A stretch of 26,893 bases of DNA. Source: a virus. The first letter of the stretch is position 1. Each line of letters begins with the position of its first letter. The notes beneath the pieces were generated by a model that ran no database searches, had not been told where the DNA came from, and saw only the letters and a program-made list of their open reading frames with translations. Shown here piece by piece: positions 1-26,893 of this stretch. The position numbers were made by a program, and so were the translations under genes. The DNA lies in the IMG/VR virus record IMGVR_UViG_3300044644_000225, positions 1-26,893 of that record; one strand, 5' to 3'.

Positions 1-391
1 AAGCTTTAAAATTTATTGAATAATCACCACGATAAAGAGATTTATCTGCGGGATCAAGGCCAAGCTTTACTAAAGTGCTTGTGCCAAATTGGGTTCCATT
101 TGCCAAAGTCTTTCCTTGGAAAAATGAATCTATTGAATCAGCAATATTGAATAGTTCAGTATCACCATTTCCTGCTTTAACAAAAATCGAAAGAATTAGC
201 AGTCCAGAGAATTTCTTCTTAAGACCATGAGCATCAACTGTTGAACTACCAGGCAATATAGATACTCTAATAAATGAGGTAGAGCTGTTAATATCTCCAC
301 TGTAATTATCAGGGTATGTCTTATATGTAGTGGCAACCCAAGGCGCTGAAGCAAATACTCCATAAATGTCGTTTCTTAGTTTATTATACAT
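1..391 (-). CDS. Putative tail terminator (tail completion) protein, 3' end cut by window edge
   Basis: An open frame starts at the ATG at 391 and continues without a stop to the left edge, giving at least 130 residues (begins MYNKLRNDIYGVF). It starts one base after the stop of the head-closure gene. The size and N-terminal pattern (short helix followed by a beta-rich region with VSILPGSS and LSIFVKAGNGD) fit the small tail terminator proteins that cap the tail tube in siphoviruses and myoviruses, and the position after connector and head-closure genes fits that order. No catalytic motif is expected in this family. The assignment rests mostly on gene order; another small neck protein is possible. 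Confidence 0.6.
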   Translation of the reverse strand, partial: MYNKLRNDIYGVFASAPWVATTYKTYPDNYSGDINSSTSFIRVSILPGSSTVDAHGLKKKFSGLLILSIFVKAGNGDTELFNIADSIDSFFQGKTLANGTQFGTSTLVKLGLDPADKSLYRGDYSINFKA

Positions 392-737: not shown

Positions 738-1235
738 TTAGTTTGCCCTCCACCATTGAGTAGAACCTTGATTTACTAAAAGTGGTTTCAAGTACTTTTT
801 AACAAGACTAGGAACTGTTGGAGTTCTAGTTGTGTCATTATTACTATCTTTCAATGTAATCGTACCAATAGAAATTTCTTCAAAGTTTTGAGATTTATTA
901 TCTAACAAATTTTCATTAGACAATAAATGATGAGCCATTTCTAAAACAGCTTGTTTCATTCTTTTTGGAATTTCAGATTCACCATAAGTAATACTTTGCC
1001 CTAATCTAGGATCAAAAGTTGAGGCCCCTTTACGAGGCCACGCAAGACTCTGTGTGGAACTGACAGCAACACCAATAAATTGATTTTCATCAAGTAAAAG
1101 AGTTGCAGTCACTAATGCGGACTCTTGGTCATCATCCTGAGCATTTATCCATGCACCCGCATCAATACGGGTATCAAAGTATGCTTCAGCTTCGACCATA
1201 GTTACATATGTGTTTGTACCTAGGACTAGTGCCAT
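738..1235 (-). CDS. Head-tail connector (gp6-like / DnaT-like fold) protein
   Basis: 165 residues. The start ATG at 1235 follows a strong ribosome site (AGGAGG). The N-terminus (NTYVTMVEAEAYFDTR, with DQESALVTATLLLDE further on) and the WPR segment near residue 67 match the phage family often labelled 'DnaT-like ssDNA-binding'. In structural clusters this family is the head-tail connector, forming a ring under the portal. IPKRMKQAVLEMAHHLL is the characteristic helix. It lies directly downstream of the major capsid gene, as expected for a connector. The DnaT label is probably a family naming artefact; no replication role is suggested by context. Confidence 0.72.
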   Translation of the reverse strand: MALVLGTNTYVTMVEAEAYFDTRIDAGAWINAQDDDQESALVTATLLLDENQFIGVAVSSTQSLAWPRKGASTFDPRLGQSITYGESEIPKRMKQAVLEMAHHLLSNENLLDNKSQNFEEISIGTITLKDSNNDTTRTPTVPSLVKKYLKPLLVNQGSTQWWRAN

Positions 1236-1252
1236 CAGTTCCTCCTAATGGA

Positions 1253-2344
1253 TTAAGCGTGGAGAATAGGCAAGATACCTAAGTTCAATGCGCTCATCTT
1301 ACGTGCCCATGAACCAGCAGTGGCATAACCAGCGTTGCTAGCGAAGGCATTAGTAGCGCCAGCCCAGTCGTAACCCATTGGGTGTACAACGAAGCCATAG
1401 CGATACCAGATAGCGGTAGAACCACCACCAGTGTAAGAAGCAGCTGAACGATCAACTTCAACAGGTGTAGGAACAGCAATGTTTGTAAAGCTGATAGCAC
1501 CTGGCTTGCAGATGAATGTGGTCTTTACAGAACGGTCATTCACGTTAGCAGAGGCAGACAAGTCACCTTGAGCAACACGGCTCAAGATCAAACGGAATTT
1601 ACCACCGAACACGGTTTGGAATGTCAAGTTACCATCGGTAACAGTTGTGACATCAACCAAGTTAGCAGCACGCAACTCAGCCAACACTTCAGGTGAAGTG
1701 ATCATGTACATGAAGTCTGGCTCATAATCCTTAAAGCCCATACCTAGAGCTTGGAATAAACGCTGACCACGAGCAGCACCAATAGCTGTAGCGTCAAACA
1801 ACTTACGCTGATCAGATGCAGAAGTAGCAGCAGCACCAAAGGTACCGGCAGCGTTAATATCTACGAAGCTACCAACACCAGCGCCATCAGCGTCTGTGTC
1901 ATAACCAACGATACCAGCACCACGAGAAACTTCGTATGCAGCTACACCTTTAAGTGTGGCGATAACAGCATCAGACTCGTCTTGGCTACGAACTTCAGAG
2001 AAGTCACGAGCAATCTTAGAAAGACCGTCTTGTTGTGAAACAACTTGTTGTAAATTGACTTGTTCAGAACCAAAGGTACGAACTGTCTTAATGTAGTCAG
2101 CAATTTCGGTAGACACATCAGTGTAAGTACCTGCATTGGCGACAGAGAGGCTAGCAACGTTAATGTTAGCTGCTAGGGGCTTGTACCAGCGCATTTGACC
2201 AATAAAGCTCTCGCCTGTTGGGTCAATACGGGCATCAGTACCAACGATGCCAGTGCTGTTAAGCTTCTTGGCATTTGTGTACATTTCGTCAGCGTATGCA
2301 GAAATAGCAATAGCTACGTTTTGGAACATTGTATGATTAATCAT
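1253..2344 (-). CDS. Major capsid protein (HK97-type fold expected)
   Basis: 363 residues from the ATG at 2344, preceded by AGGAG at good spacing. The protein is Ala/Gly-rich with no signal peptide. It has an N-terminal helical region, a middle domain containing FMYMITSPEVLAELRAANLV and GGKFRLILSR, and a C-terminal VHPMGYDWAG segment. The segment describing a test peptide region followed by 'FKDYEPDFMYMITSP' is a pattern common in phage major capsid proteins of the HK97 class. It follows the scaffold gene directly. Local base composition is more GC-rich than its neighbours, which suits a highly expressed gene. The fold is inferred from family and context. Confidence 0.88.
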   Translation of the reverse strand: MINHTMFQNVAIAISAYADEMYTNAKKLNSTGIVGTDARIDPTGESFIGQMRWYKPLAANINVASLSVANAGTYTDVSTEIADYIKTVRTFGSEQVNLQQVVSQQDGLSKIARDFSEVRSQDESDAVIATLKGVAAYEVSRGAGIVGYDTDADGAGVGSFVDINAAGTFGAAATSASDQRKLFDATAIGAARGQRLFQALGMGFKDYEPDFMYMITSPEVLAELRAANLVDVTTVTDGNLTFQTVFGGKFRLILSRVAQGDLSASANVNDRSVKTTFICKPGAISFTNIAVPTPVEVDRSAASYTGGGSTAIWYRYGFVVHPMGYDWAGATNAFASNAGYATAGSWARKMSALNLGILPILHA

Positions 2345-13271: not shown

Positions 13272-13343
13272 AGAGCGGTAGTGGGACTCGAACTCACATT
13301 CCAGAGATAACGTCTGATTCTACCTATTGAACTATACCACTCT
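13272..13343 (-). tRNA. tRNA-like element with canonical D and T arms but abnormal anticodon arm
   Basis: Reading the minus strand, AGAGTGGTA at 13343-13335 pairs with TACCGCTCT at 13280-13272 (nine pairs, one G-T). T8, A9, a D arm GTTC/GAAT with A14, G18-G19 and A21, and a T loop TTCGAGT closed by GTGAG/CCCAC (one mismatch) are all present. The anticodon arm is odd: the best stem TCAGA/TCTGG encloses CGTTATC, lacks T33, borrows a base of the D stem and leaves a 3-base variable loop, so about four bases are missing relative to a normal tRNA. GTT (Asn) is also visible in the loop but out of register. No CCA is encoded. It may be a decayed Asn-type tRNA or a tRNA-mimicking structure. Confidence 0.6.
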
Positions 13344-22519: not shown

Positions 22520-23659
22520 TTACTCCTTATACAAAATGTCGAACAAGTATTCAATAACTTGATGCTCTTCATAGCCTACACGTAGCATGTCTTCTGCATC
22601 AAGAATAACCTCTTCTGTCAATGCGTTTCTATTAAGAAACTTAATTGCAGTTTCAGGATGTTCAGGATGAATAAATGTAGCTACCATCTCTAATAATTCT
22701 GTCTTCAAACCAAACTTAGCGTCTGCTAAACAGTCAATTAATGTTGTAGCTTCCTCAGTATAAGTTATTGGACCTACTGGATCTTTCTCATAGTCATACT
22801 CGTAGTCAGCGTAGTTACTATAGCCATATGCATCTTTGTTATAAGTAGGGAAAGCTGTGTAGTTACTGTAATTAGTCTTAAGCTCATCTGGATCAGGCAC
22901 ACTTGGATCACGAACAGCTTCGAGAGAATCCCAGTTAATTTTCAATACAGCCTCGGATAAGTCTTGCAAGTGATAGAGATCAAGCTTTTCATTTGGTGTA
23001 TGCTCAGAGTAATAACCAGCACTAATGTTAGTACATTCAGGAATAATATCAGCAAACTCAGCAGTATCAGTGTAAACGCCTGTATCATCTGGTACAAACA
23101 TAAAGTCTGTACAAGCATCATTCAAAGCGTCTGACAATGCATAAGCAAAATCATCTGAACAAGTACGACCACACATTTGATGAGTAATAATACTATGAGT
23201 ACCTTTACGATCGAATGTAATAGCTCGTTTGAATTGTCCAACTAGTCCTGGATCATTTAATGCAAGCCAACTAGAACCGATGCCACCTTTCTCTTCACCT
23301 TGAAAGAACACATAGTAGCCAGGAACTCTATTGTCAATCATGTGAAGTAGTAAAGCAACGCCAGCACCATCGTCAGCACCGAGAGGTTTACCTCCGTCAG
23401 CTAGCAGATATTGACCTTCATACTTAAACACATTATCACCATCTTCACGGTGGACAGTATCTACGTGAGCAGTAAATAATGTCTCATTAGATGAGTCATC
23501 ACGCATGTCCACATGAATATTGCCGCAGAAGTCTACTGATAGGTCTCCCTCACCAACACGTTCTACGATATAGTTACAGAGCATAGTAACACCTGTACCA
23601 CCATGTGGTCTCTTCAGGGACAATGCGAATTCCAAGTCTTTAATTAATTGAGTTTTCAT
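22520..23659 (-). CDS. Zn-dependent peptidase of the M20/M28/M42 superfamily
   Basis: 379 residues. Metal-site motifs appear in order: TAHVDTVH (H65, D67), LGADDGAG (D96/D97 bridging), QGEEKGGIGS (E122 base, E123 ligand), FDRKGT (D150) and SEHTPNE (H220). These are the ligands of co-catalytic dizinc exopeptidases such as peptidase T and aminopeptidases. After ~240 the sequence becomes acidic and Tyr/Asn-rich (SNYTAFPTYNKDAYGYSNY), then ends in a helical domain. Substrate unknown; peptide salvage, host protein turnover or inactivation of a peptide signal are possible. It overlaps the preceding Cys-cluster gene by four bases. Confidence 0.85.
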   Translation of the reverse strand: MKTQLIKDLEFALSLKRPHGGTGVTMLCNYIVERVGEGDLSVDFCGNIHVDMRDDSSNETLFTAHVDTVHREDGDNVFKYEGQYLLADGGKPLGADDGAGVALLLHMIDNRVPGYYVFFQGEEKGGIGSSWLALNDPGLVGQFKRAITFDRKGTHSIITHQMCGRTCSDDFAYALSDALNDACTDFMFVPDDTGVYTDTAEFADIIPECTNISAGYYSEHTPNEKLDLYHLQDLSEAVLKINWDSLEAVRDPSVPDPDELKTNYSNYTAFPTYNKDAYGYSNYADYEYDYEKDPVGPITYTEEATTLIDCLADAKFGLKTELLEMVATFIHPEHPETAIKFLNRNALTEEVILDAEDMLRVGYEEHQVIEYLFDILYKE

Positions 23660-26285: not shown

Positions 26286-26893
26286 TTACGGATTCTTAAT
26301 TACTTCATCTACAATACCATGTGTAACTGCCTCATCTGGGGAAAAGAAACAATCTGATTGTTGTAGCAAATGTTTACGGATATATGTAACAGACTTACCT
26401 GTGCATTTGCGATAATGATTTAACATTCTTAGCGAGTCTAGCTGAAAGTCCTTTGAGGCTGCAGCTATCTCATGTTCTTTGCCCACAACTCCACGAGAGA
26501 ATTGATGTGACATAACAGAACAATTTTCGGTAATAAACCGATTACCTTTATTTCCTGACATCAACAACATGACACCTGCTGAGGCTACTTCACCAGTACC
26601 AATAGTAATTATTGGAATATTGGATTGTTTAATAGTATCAATTAAATGGTATGCTGAAGAAACAAATCCACCTGGACTGTTAATAAACAATACAAGTTTA
26701 TCTGGTTGATCTTGCTTAGCCATTAGATTGTATTCCATAATAGCCATAATAATAGGCTGTACAGATTCATCTTCTACTTCTCCCATAAGATACATTACGC
26801 CATTACGCATAATATTCTTACCAAACCAGTAGTACCCATTATCACCATCTTCCTGAGTTACAGGTTGAGGTGGATTAGGGGAGTCTGGTGCTT
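26286..26893 (-). CDS. ClpP-like serine protease, 5' end cut by window edge
   Basis: The frame is open to the right edge; an internal ATG at 26810 gives 174 residues, but the upstream codons (NGYYWFGKNI before it) read smoothly and the real start probably lies outside the window. From that ATG: FINSPGG at 43-49 (oxyanion region), EVASAGV with Ser77, MSHQF with His102, and SDCFFSPDEA with Asp153, a full ClpP/SDH-fold catalytic triad. Host ClpP is a tetradecamer fed by AAA+ unfoldases; phage versions may process capsid proteins or divert host proteolysis. No AAA+ partner is visible here. Confidence 0.88.
   Translation of the reverse strand, partial: APDSPNPPQPVTQEDGDNGYYWFGKNIMRNGVMYLMGEVEDESVQPIIMAIMEYNLMAKQDQPDKLVLFINSPGGFVSSAYHLIDTIKQSNIPIITIGTGEVASAGVMLLMSGNKGNRFITENCSVMSHQFSRGVVGKEHEIAAASKDFQLDSLRMLNHYRKCTGKSVTYIRKHLLQQSDCFFSPDEAVTHGIVDEVIKNP

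Follow-up and report, generated by a model that had tools for sequence, protein, structure and literature searches.

A phage-encoded clan MH peptidase and the SCM/zinc protein gene with which it is paired

Described relatives and distribution

Peptidases of the family PHROG 4191 are encoded by an early gene of Drulisvirus, Phimunavirus and Maculvirus, such as KP34p11 of a Klebsiella phage and PhiM1_10 of a Pectobacterium phage; according to the accessible parts of two reports, the gene belongs to the conserved early-region genes of Autographiviridae (PMC6115819, PMC4411677). Among solved and classified enzymes, the PepT and PepT-like tripeptidases and PepD (M20B) share with it the catalytic core, the GADD motif, the EE pair and the final His, and the M28 aminopeptidases (PF04389) share with it a single catalytic domain without a lid. 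In the open-licence literature, as far as its texts were accessible, no functional study of the peptidase or of the gene pair described below was found, nor a description of the two-gene module and of the character of the partner protein. A toxicity screen with a drulisvirus identified, in the accessible part of the publication, three proteins as toxic, with lengths of 69, 182 and 146 amino acids (PMC7291057); by size, neither member of the pair matches any of these, and the word "peptidase" is absent from the main text in the form available.

The stretch of DNA analysed here, in the following called the window (26,893 nucleotides, IMG/VR record IMGVR_UViG_3300044644_000225), contains a peptidase gene of the same family as PHROG 4191 (E 3.8e-72, aa 11-274, spanning the catalytic domain); the protein has 33-46% identity to four phage relatives. 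KP34p11 and PhiM1_10 directly follow genes of the family to which the upstream neighbour, here termed the partner, belongs (KP34p10, E 1.1e-38; PhiM1_09, E 2.1e-16, with a partner-core profile). The relatives of the window differ from the phages of PHROG 4191 by contigs of up to about 80 kb, compared to about 44 kb, and the partner in the window is shorter (447 aa versus 516-713 aa in four phages). A near-identical peptidase gene (99%) was present in an IMG/VR contig of 77,817 bases.

Using tblastn, the peptidase was matched in 380 of 50,697 phage records, mostly Autographiviridae of about 44 kb from Klebsiella, Pectobacterium and Vibrio with the annotation "putative peptidase", and three IMG/VR scans contained at least 577, 535 and 544 confirmed stretches, respectively. 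Taken alone, the peptidase is a known and annotated phage family. The notion of the earlier note that such exopeptidases are uncommon in phage genomes had to be abandoned, since this one is a core early gene of several genera of Autographiviridae and occurs in multiple copies in large phages. Six IMG/VR records of 228-476 kb gave 3, 3, 3, 4, 4 and 5 matches, where the record with five includes a marginal fragment (E 5.5e-4), and LR745206 (635 kb) gave 5. The copies in large phages (records of loci L179, L180, L197, L210, L230, L246 and L097; 3-5 copies each) are divergent and differ in frame length.

The peptidase: fold, active site and linker

The reading frame assigned to the peptidase in the earlier note is genuine and lies on the minus strand (Table 1); the plus strand over the same positions has many stops and is not open. 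The Pfam profile Peptidase_M28 (PF04389) passed its gathering cut-off with 24.3 versus 21.3 bits, covering only aa 47-212, whereas Peptidase_M20 (PF01546) did not reach it (18.6 versus 24.6 bits) and the PepT-like NCBIfam profile TIGR01883 stayed far below its curated cut-off (29.9 versus 274.25 bits). The nearest solved sequence was PepT 3gb0 (E 1.8e-5).

Table 1. Coordinates of features in the window and of regions in the two proteins of the pair.
Feature	Position	Strand	Remarks
Peptidase ORF, 379 aa, ATG to TAA	22520..23659	(-)	ORF, family and model evidence
Peptidase, catalytic core	aa 1-250		AlphaFold2 model and structural alignment
Peptidase, linker	aa about 253-300		Disordered, acidic/Tyr
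Peptidase, C-terminal helical domain	aa 302-376		
ATGA stop/start overlap, 4 nt	23656..23659	(-)	Translational coupling signature
Partner ORF, 447 aa	23656..24999	(-)	Directly upstream of the peptidase gene
Partner, N-terminal helices	aa 1-110		
Partner, SCM core	aa 112-250		Weak GNAT-fold similarity
Partner, LIM/FYVE-like zinc region	aa about 290-346		
Partner, acidic beta-rich repeats	C-terminal part		
ORF, 1483 aa	3127-7578	(-)	Phage_Mu_F 3.4e-12 (Pfam, aa 142-245); RNA_pol 8.2e-8 (aa 1064-1437); phrog_414 1.8e-25
tRNA, anticodon TTA	13272-13342	(-)	ARAGORN
dCMP/cytidine-deaminase-like ORF, 100 aa	20547-20849	(-)	Pfam 2.8e-8
ClpP-family protease ORF	26286-26810	(-)	Pfam CLP_protease 1.1e-33

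An AlphaFold2 model, calculated from an alignment of 73 sequences, had a mean pLDDT of 83.9. Its core (residues 1-249) aligned with structures of PepT, PepD, TET and M42 enzymes, at best with Z 25.7 and 2.6 A over 238 residues; the value of 25.7 was obtained with the PepT-type tripeptidase 3rza; 2qyv gave 25.6 and 3gb0 25.3. Z values of at least 8 were found in 629 of 1000 aligned chains, with PepT, PepD and TET/M42 enzymes at the top, and the model has the Zn-exopeptidase alpha/beta fold; the best structural matches listed were of the PepT, PepD and M42 types. The 238 residues aligned with 3rza stem from positions 1-247 of the model and stretch across residues 3-375 of that chain, which means that the lid/dimerisation domain of PepT, PepD and M42 enzymes is absent from the phage protein. 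D150 and H220 are separated by only 70 residues. A further difference from PepT and PepD is the additional C-terminal helical domain, which follows after a disordered linker.

The peptidase is a di-metal peptidase of clan MH (M20/M28/M42). The ligand set of the clan (HxD, bridging Asp, EE, second Asp/Glu and final His) is complete with H65, D67, D96, E122, E123, D150 and H220, whose roles we take to be those of the corresponding residues in PepT. These seven positions were invariant across five diverse phages, and no substitution was seen in 201 aligned rows (the window protein and 200 unique ORFs), one row being gapped at E122, E123, D150 and H220 and all informative rows retaining every position; the assignment in the earlier note to an M20/M28/M42-type enzyme with all expected ligands was thus borne out. 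For D96 and E208-N211, part of the invariance results from the scan patterns, which contained LGAD and ECTN; from each scan the best 80 loci were taken. The GADD motif is of the kind found in PepT alignments; deacylase-type members of the clan differ in this respect. Since the fold matches and all catalytic positions are kept, the enzyme is very probably active, as judged from sequence and model. The opposite case, a degenerate or regulatory paralogue without catalysis, would appear highly improbable: no point in its support was found, and the seven positions have stayed unchanged despite pairwise identities between lineages which drop to about 32%.

The earlier note had also pointed out an unusual acidic Tyr/Asn-rich insertion at residues 245-300. 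The composition was confirmed (Y+N 14 of 56 residues, D+E 11 of 56); the insertion was not. According to the model, in which pLDDT falls below 50 at residues 263-297, the stretch is a disordered and variable linker between domains and not an insertion within the fold. Its length ranges from 22 to 54 aa among 73 sequences, and mean identity to the window protein is lowest here, at 23%, with 40% for the C-terminal domain and 58% for the core.

The partner protein and the pairing of the two genes

For the partner, no match was obtained with Pfam or NCBIfam profiles and none (0 matches) with PDB sequences; weak Pfam matches in 71 members of the family were scattered and inconsistent, and no acetyltransferase domain was among the 25 of 35 Pfam families listed for them. 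The AlphaFold2 model (alignment of 71 sequences) had a mean pLDDT of 87.9 and a pTM of 0.51. With the core (residues 112-226), both structural searches retrieved almost exclusively GNAT acyltransferases, including the aminoacyl-tRNA-dependent MprF/PGS enzymes, at scores below the confident range (best Z 5.8 over 100 residues at 4.3 A; best Foldseek E 0.032). In GNAT enzymes, the motif [RQ]xxGx[GA] forms the acetyl-CoA loop between the fourth strand and the third helix. The motif is missing from all 71 partner sequences, which instead conserve a pattern of their own (SCM...HPY...VR..S..D). In nearly all or all of these, S134-C135-M136, H155, Y157, Y160, R182, V197, R198, S207, D210, P246, D249 and G250 are retained; C295, C298 and C320 are invariant (71 of 71). 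Residues 292-346 are weakly similar to zinc folds of the FYVE/LIM type (Z 4.6 with the FYVE chain 2yw8, 52 residues aligned). One weak structural match each to a "LIM domain containing protein" (rank 26) and to a phage "Amidoligase enzyme" (rank 31) was also recorded, the basis of a tentative idea of an amidoligase system.

The start codon of the peptidase gene lies inside the stop codon of the partner gene. When 81 non-duplicate IMG/VR loci that contain both genes were compared, the overlap was exactly 4 nt in 36; in 44 others the genes were within 50 nt of each other and in one at 321 nt. The coupling to a Cys-cluster gene, which the earlier note had proposed, is therefore supported and recurs in relatives; in the partner-bearing ones neither a loss of coupling nor a disrupted metal site was found. 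The two products may form a complex, as that note suggested.

The pairing was surveyed with 200 unique peptidase ORFs, comprising the scan loci (best 80 of each scan) and reference phages, by an unfiltered search with the partner-core profile, since the default filters of hmmsearch missed the partner in several loci. The partner was adjacent in 109 ORFs; it was located upstream across a gap of 304-1148 nt in seven and in the other orientation in one; no partner was found in 69, and in 14 there was no room for it. The first 96 loci (five of them, L018-L022, repeat contigs of others) showed the partner before the peptidase in 90 cases; five were truncated and one, from a huge phage, was without it. 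Presence or absence of the partner amounts to a single change on a peptidase tree of 199 rows (FastTree; rows of less than 230 aa excluded, long branches present, root unknown), on which the partner-less rows form one large-phage clade. In seven large records searched over their whole length the partner was not found, though the peptidase was present. Because this clade has the peptidase without a detected partner, the latter cannot be a strict requirement for every peptidase. For the reverse direction, 80 partner loci were used, chosen as closest to the window protein; they collapsed to 66 unique ORFs, and the peptidase was directly downstream of 64, slightly further away from two and missing from none.

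A scan of bacterial genome contigs gave 22 stretches that matched a pattern, 12 of which were confirmed as peptidase; in eight of the 12 the partner was nearby. In one of these contigs (L266) the gene order is swapped and the pair is still adjacent, and a Mesorhizobium contig (L265) carries the pair twice. Cellulophaga phage phi38:1 probably carries the pair in swapped order as well: here, gp37 comes after the peptidase (gp38). The match of gp37 to the partner profile is weak (E 0.0018 at 6.7 bits, search set of seven), and the motifs SSCM, GRALVW and PYMD can be recognised in it by eye. When the neighbours of 105 partner-adjacent loci were clustered, the most frequent family after the pair itself was present in 54. 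Gene distances of peptidase and partner were correlated (r 0.95 for 109 pairs, a value reached in 0 of 1000 permutations), for which shared phage ancestry alone could suffice. Close to the divergent peptidases of phages SecTim467 and P23-45, no partner was detected with the partner-core profile among the neighbouring genes tested. Brevibacillus phage SecTim467 (L260) encodes near its peptidase, at 770-2170 (-), a protein of 466 aa that combines an SCQ motif with a zinc region of the DnaJ-like CxxCxGxG type (E 0.0051 in Pfam, below the cut-off; no match to the partner profile) and which is possibly a remote analogue of the partner.

Since the two genes are paired in most phages examined, their products probably work together. 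A conserved two-gene module spans Autographiviridae, bacterial genome contigs, environmental phages whose contigs reach about 80 kb and, probably, a phage of Bacteroidota, its order being sometimes swapped, while a large-phage clade has multiplied the peptidase without the partner. The pairing bears also on a simpler explanation, namely a plain scavenging peptidase, by which small peptides from proteolysis, e.g., by host or phage ClpP, would be fed into phage protein synthesis, while the partner would serve as a stabiliser or would be an early protein with no relation to it that operon inertia has left in place. The closest solved relatives of the enzyme are indeed housekeeping di- and tripeptidases and TET-type aminopeptidases, the window has a ClpP-family ORF with the same direction as the pair, located upstream of it at a distance of five small ORFs, and large phages have three to five copies without a partner. 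However, pairing in the partner-bearing clade is strict both ways, and it has outlasted a swapped order (in L266 and probably in phi38:1) while other neighbours change, which makes operon inertia appear unlikely; on the whole, scavenging is considered a reasonable but rather unlikely explanation.

Possible function and other features of the window

We lean, with some reservation, towards a catalytically competent clan MH enzyme with two metal ions and no lid, an aminopeptidase or small-peptidase, which is co-produced with a dedicated SCM/zinc protein, its probable partner in function, and we propose that the pair is an early, host-directed module for peptide processing. By analogy with PepT, two metal ions would be bound at H65/D96/D150 and at D96/E123/H220, with E122 as the general base. 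Because the lid/dimerisation domain is missing, the cleft should be open, as in M28 enzymes, and could admit the N-termini of longer peptides or proteins. The partner, with its GNAT-like pocket, treble-clef and beta-repeat tail, may select, hold or modify the substrate and deliver it to the peptidase. In Autographiviridae, the pair is annotated in the early or leading region just before the primase, a placement supported for the peptidase gene by the accessible part of one report (PMC6115819). Because of this location, the most likely targets of the pair would be peptides or proteins of the host in the course of takeover, presumably early in infection; this is the weakest step of the proposal.

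The same early position would also suit a counter-defence enzyme, i.e., a pair that removes or destroys an immune peptide, a peptide tag or an acyl-amino-acid signal of the host soon after entry of the DNA. In Rhizobium phage Pasto, an antirestriction gene annotated as ArdA is the immediate neighbour of the pair; yet ArdA was found in only one of 30 partner-bearing records searched, so that the context in Pasto is not general and an anti-restriction neighbourhood was rejected as the common setting. Known defence substrates are not implicated either, and a role in counter-defence seems improbable.

A more specific and quite speculative idea, to which we would give little credence at present, is a phage system for N-terminal editing. 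The SCM protein would be an aminoacyl- or acyltransferase derived from GNAT, which no longer uses acetyl-CoA, similar to the aminoacyl-tRNA-dependent GNAT enzymes, and has the conserved Cys and His as its active site; it would tag or capture peptides of host or phage origin at their N-termini or amino groups, which would then be trimmed by the lid-less aminopeptidase coupled to it. If true, phages would have a means of control over protein stability or peptide-based immune signals. For the processing module as preferred here, and for its alternatives, KP34p10/KP34p11 and PhiM1_09/PhiM1_10 are of interest, since these early-region genes should render a very common pair of "hypothetical protein plus peptidase" accessible to experiments.

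The window contains further features (Table 1). The tRNA with the anticodon TTA would read UAA and thus be an ochre suppressor; the 44 ORF stops listed for the window comprise 25 TAA, 18 TGA and one TAG despite this call, and the base before the anticodon is, by eye, G and not T. The protein of 1483 aa is a candidate for a virion-carried single-subunit RNA polymerase which is fused to a minor head protein of the MuF type. Among eight related records searched, four contain it nearly full length at 80% identity, and two (those of L006 and L007) also have a separate ORF of 726 aa, which matches the polymerase part weakly.
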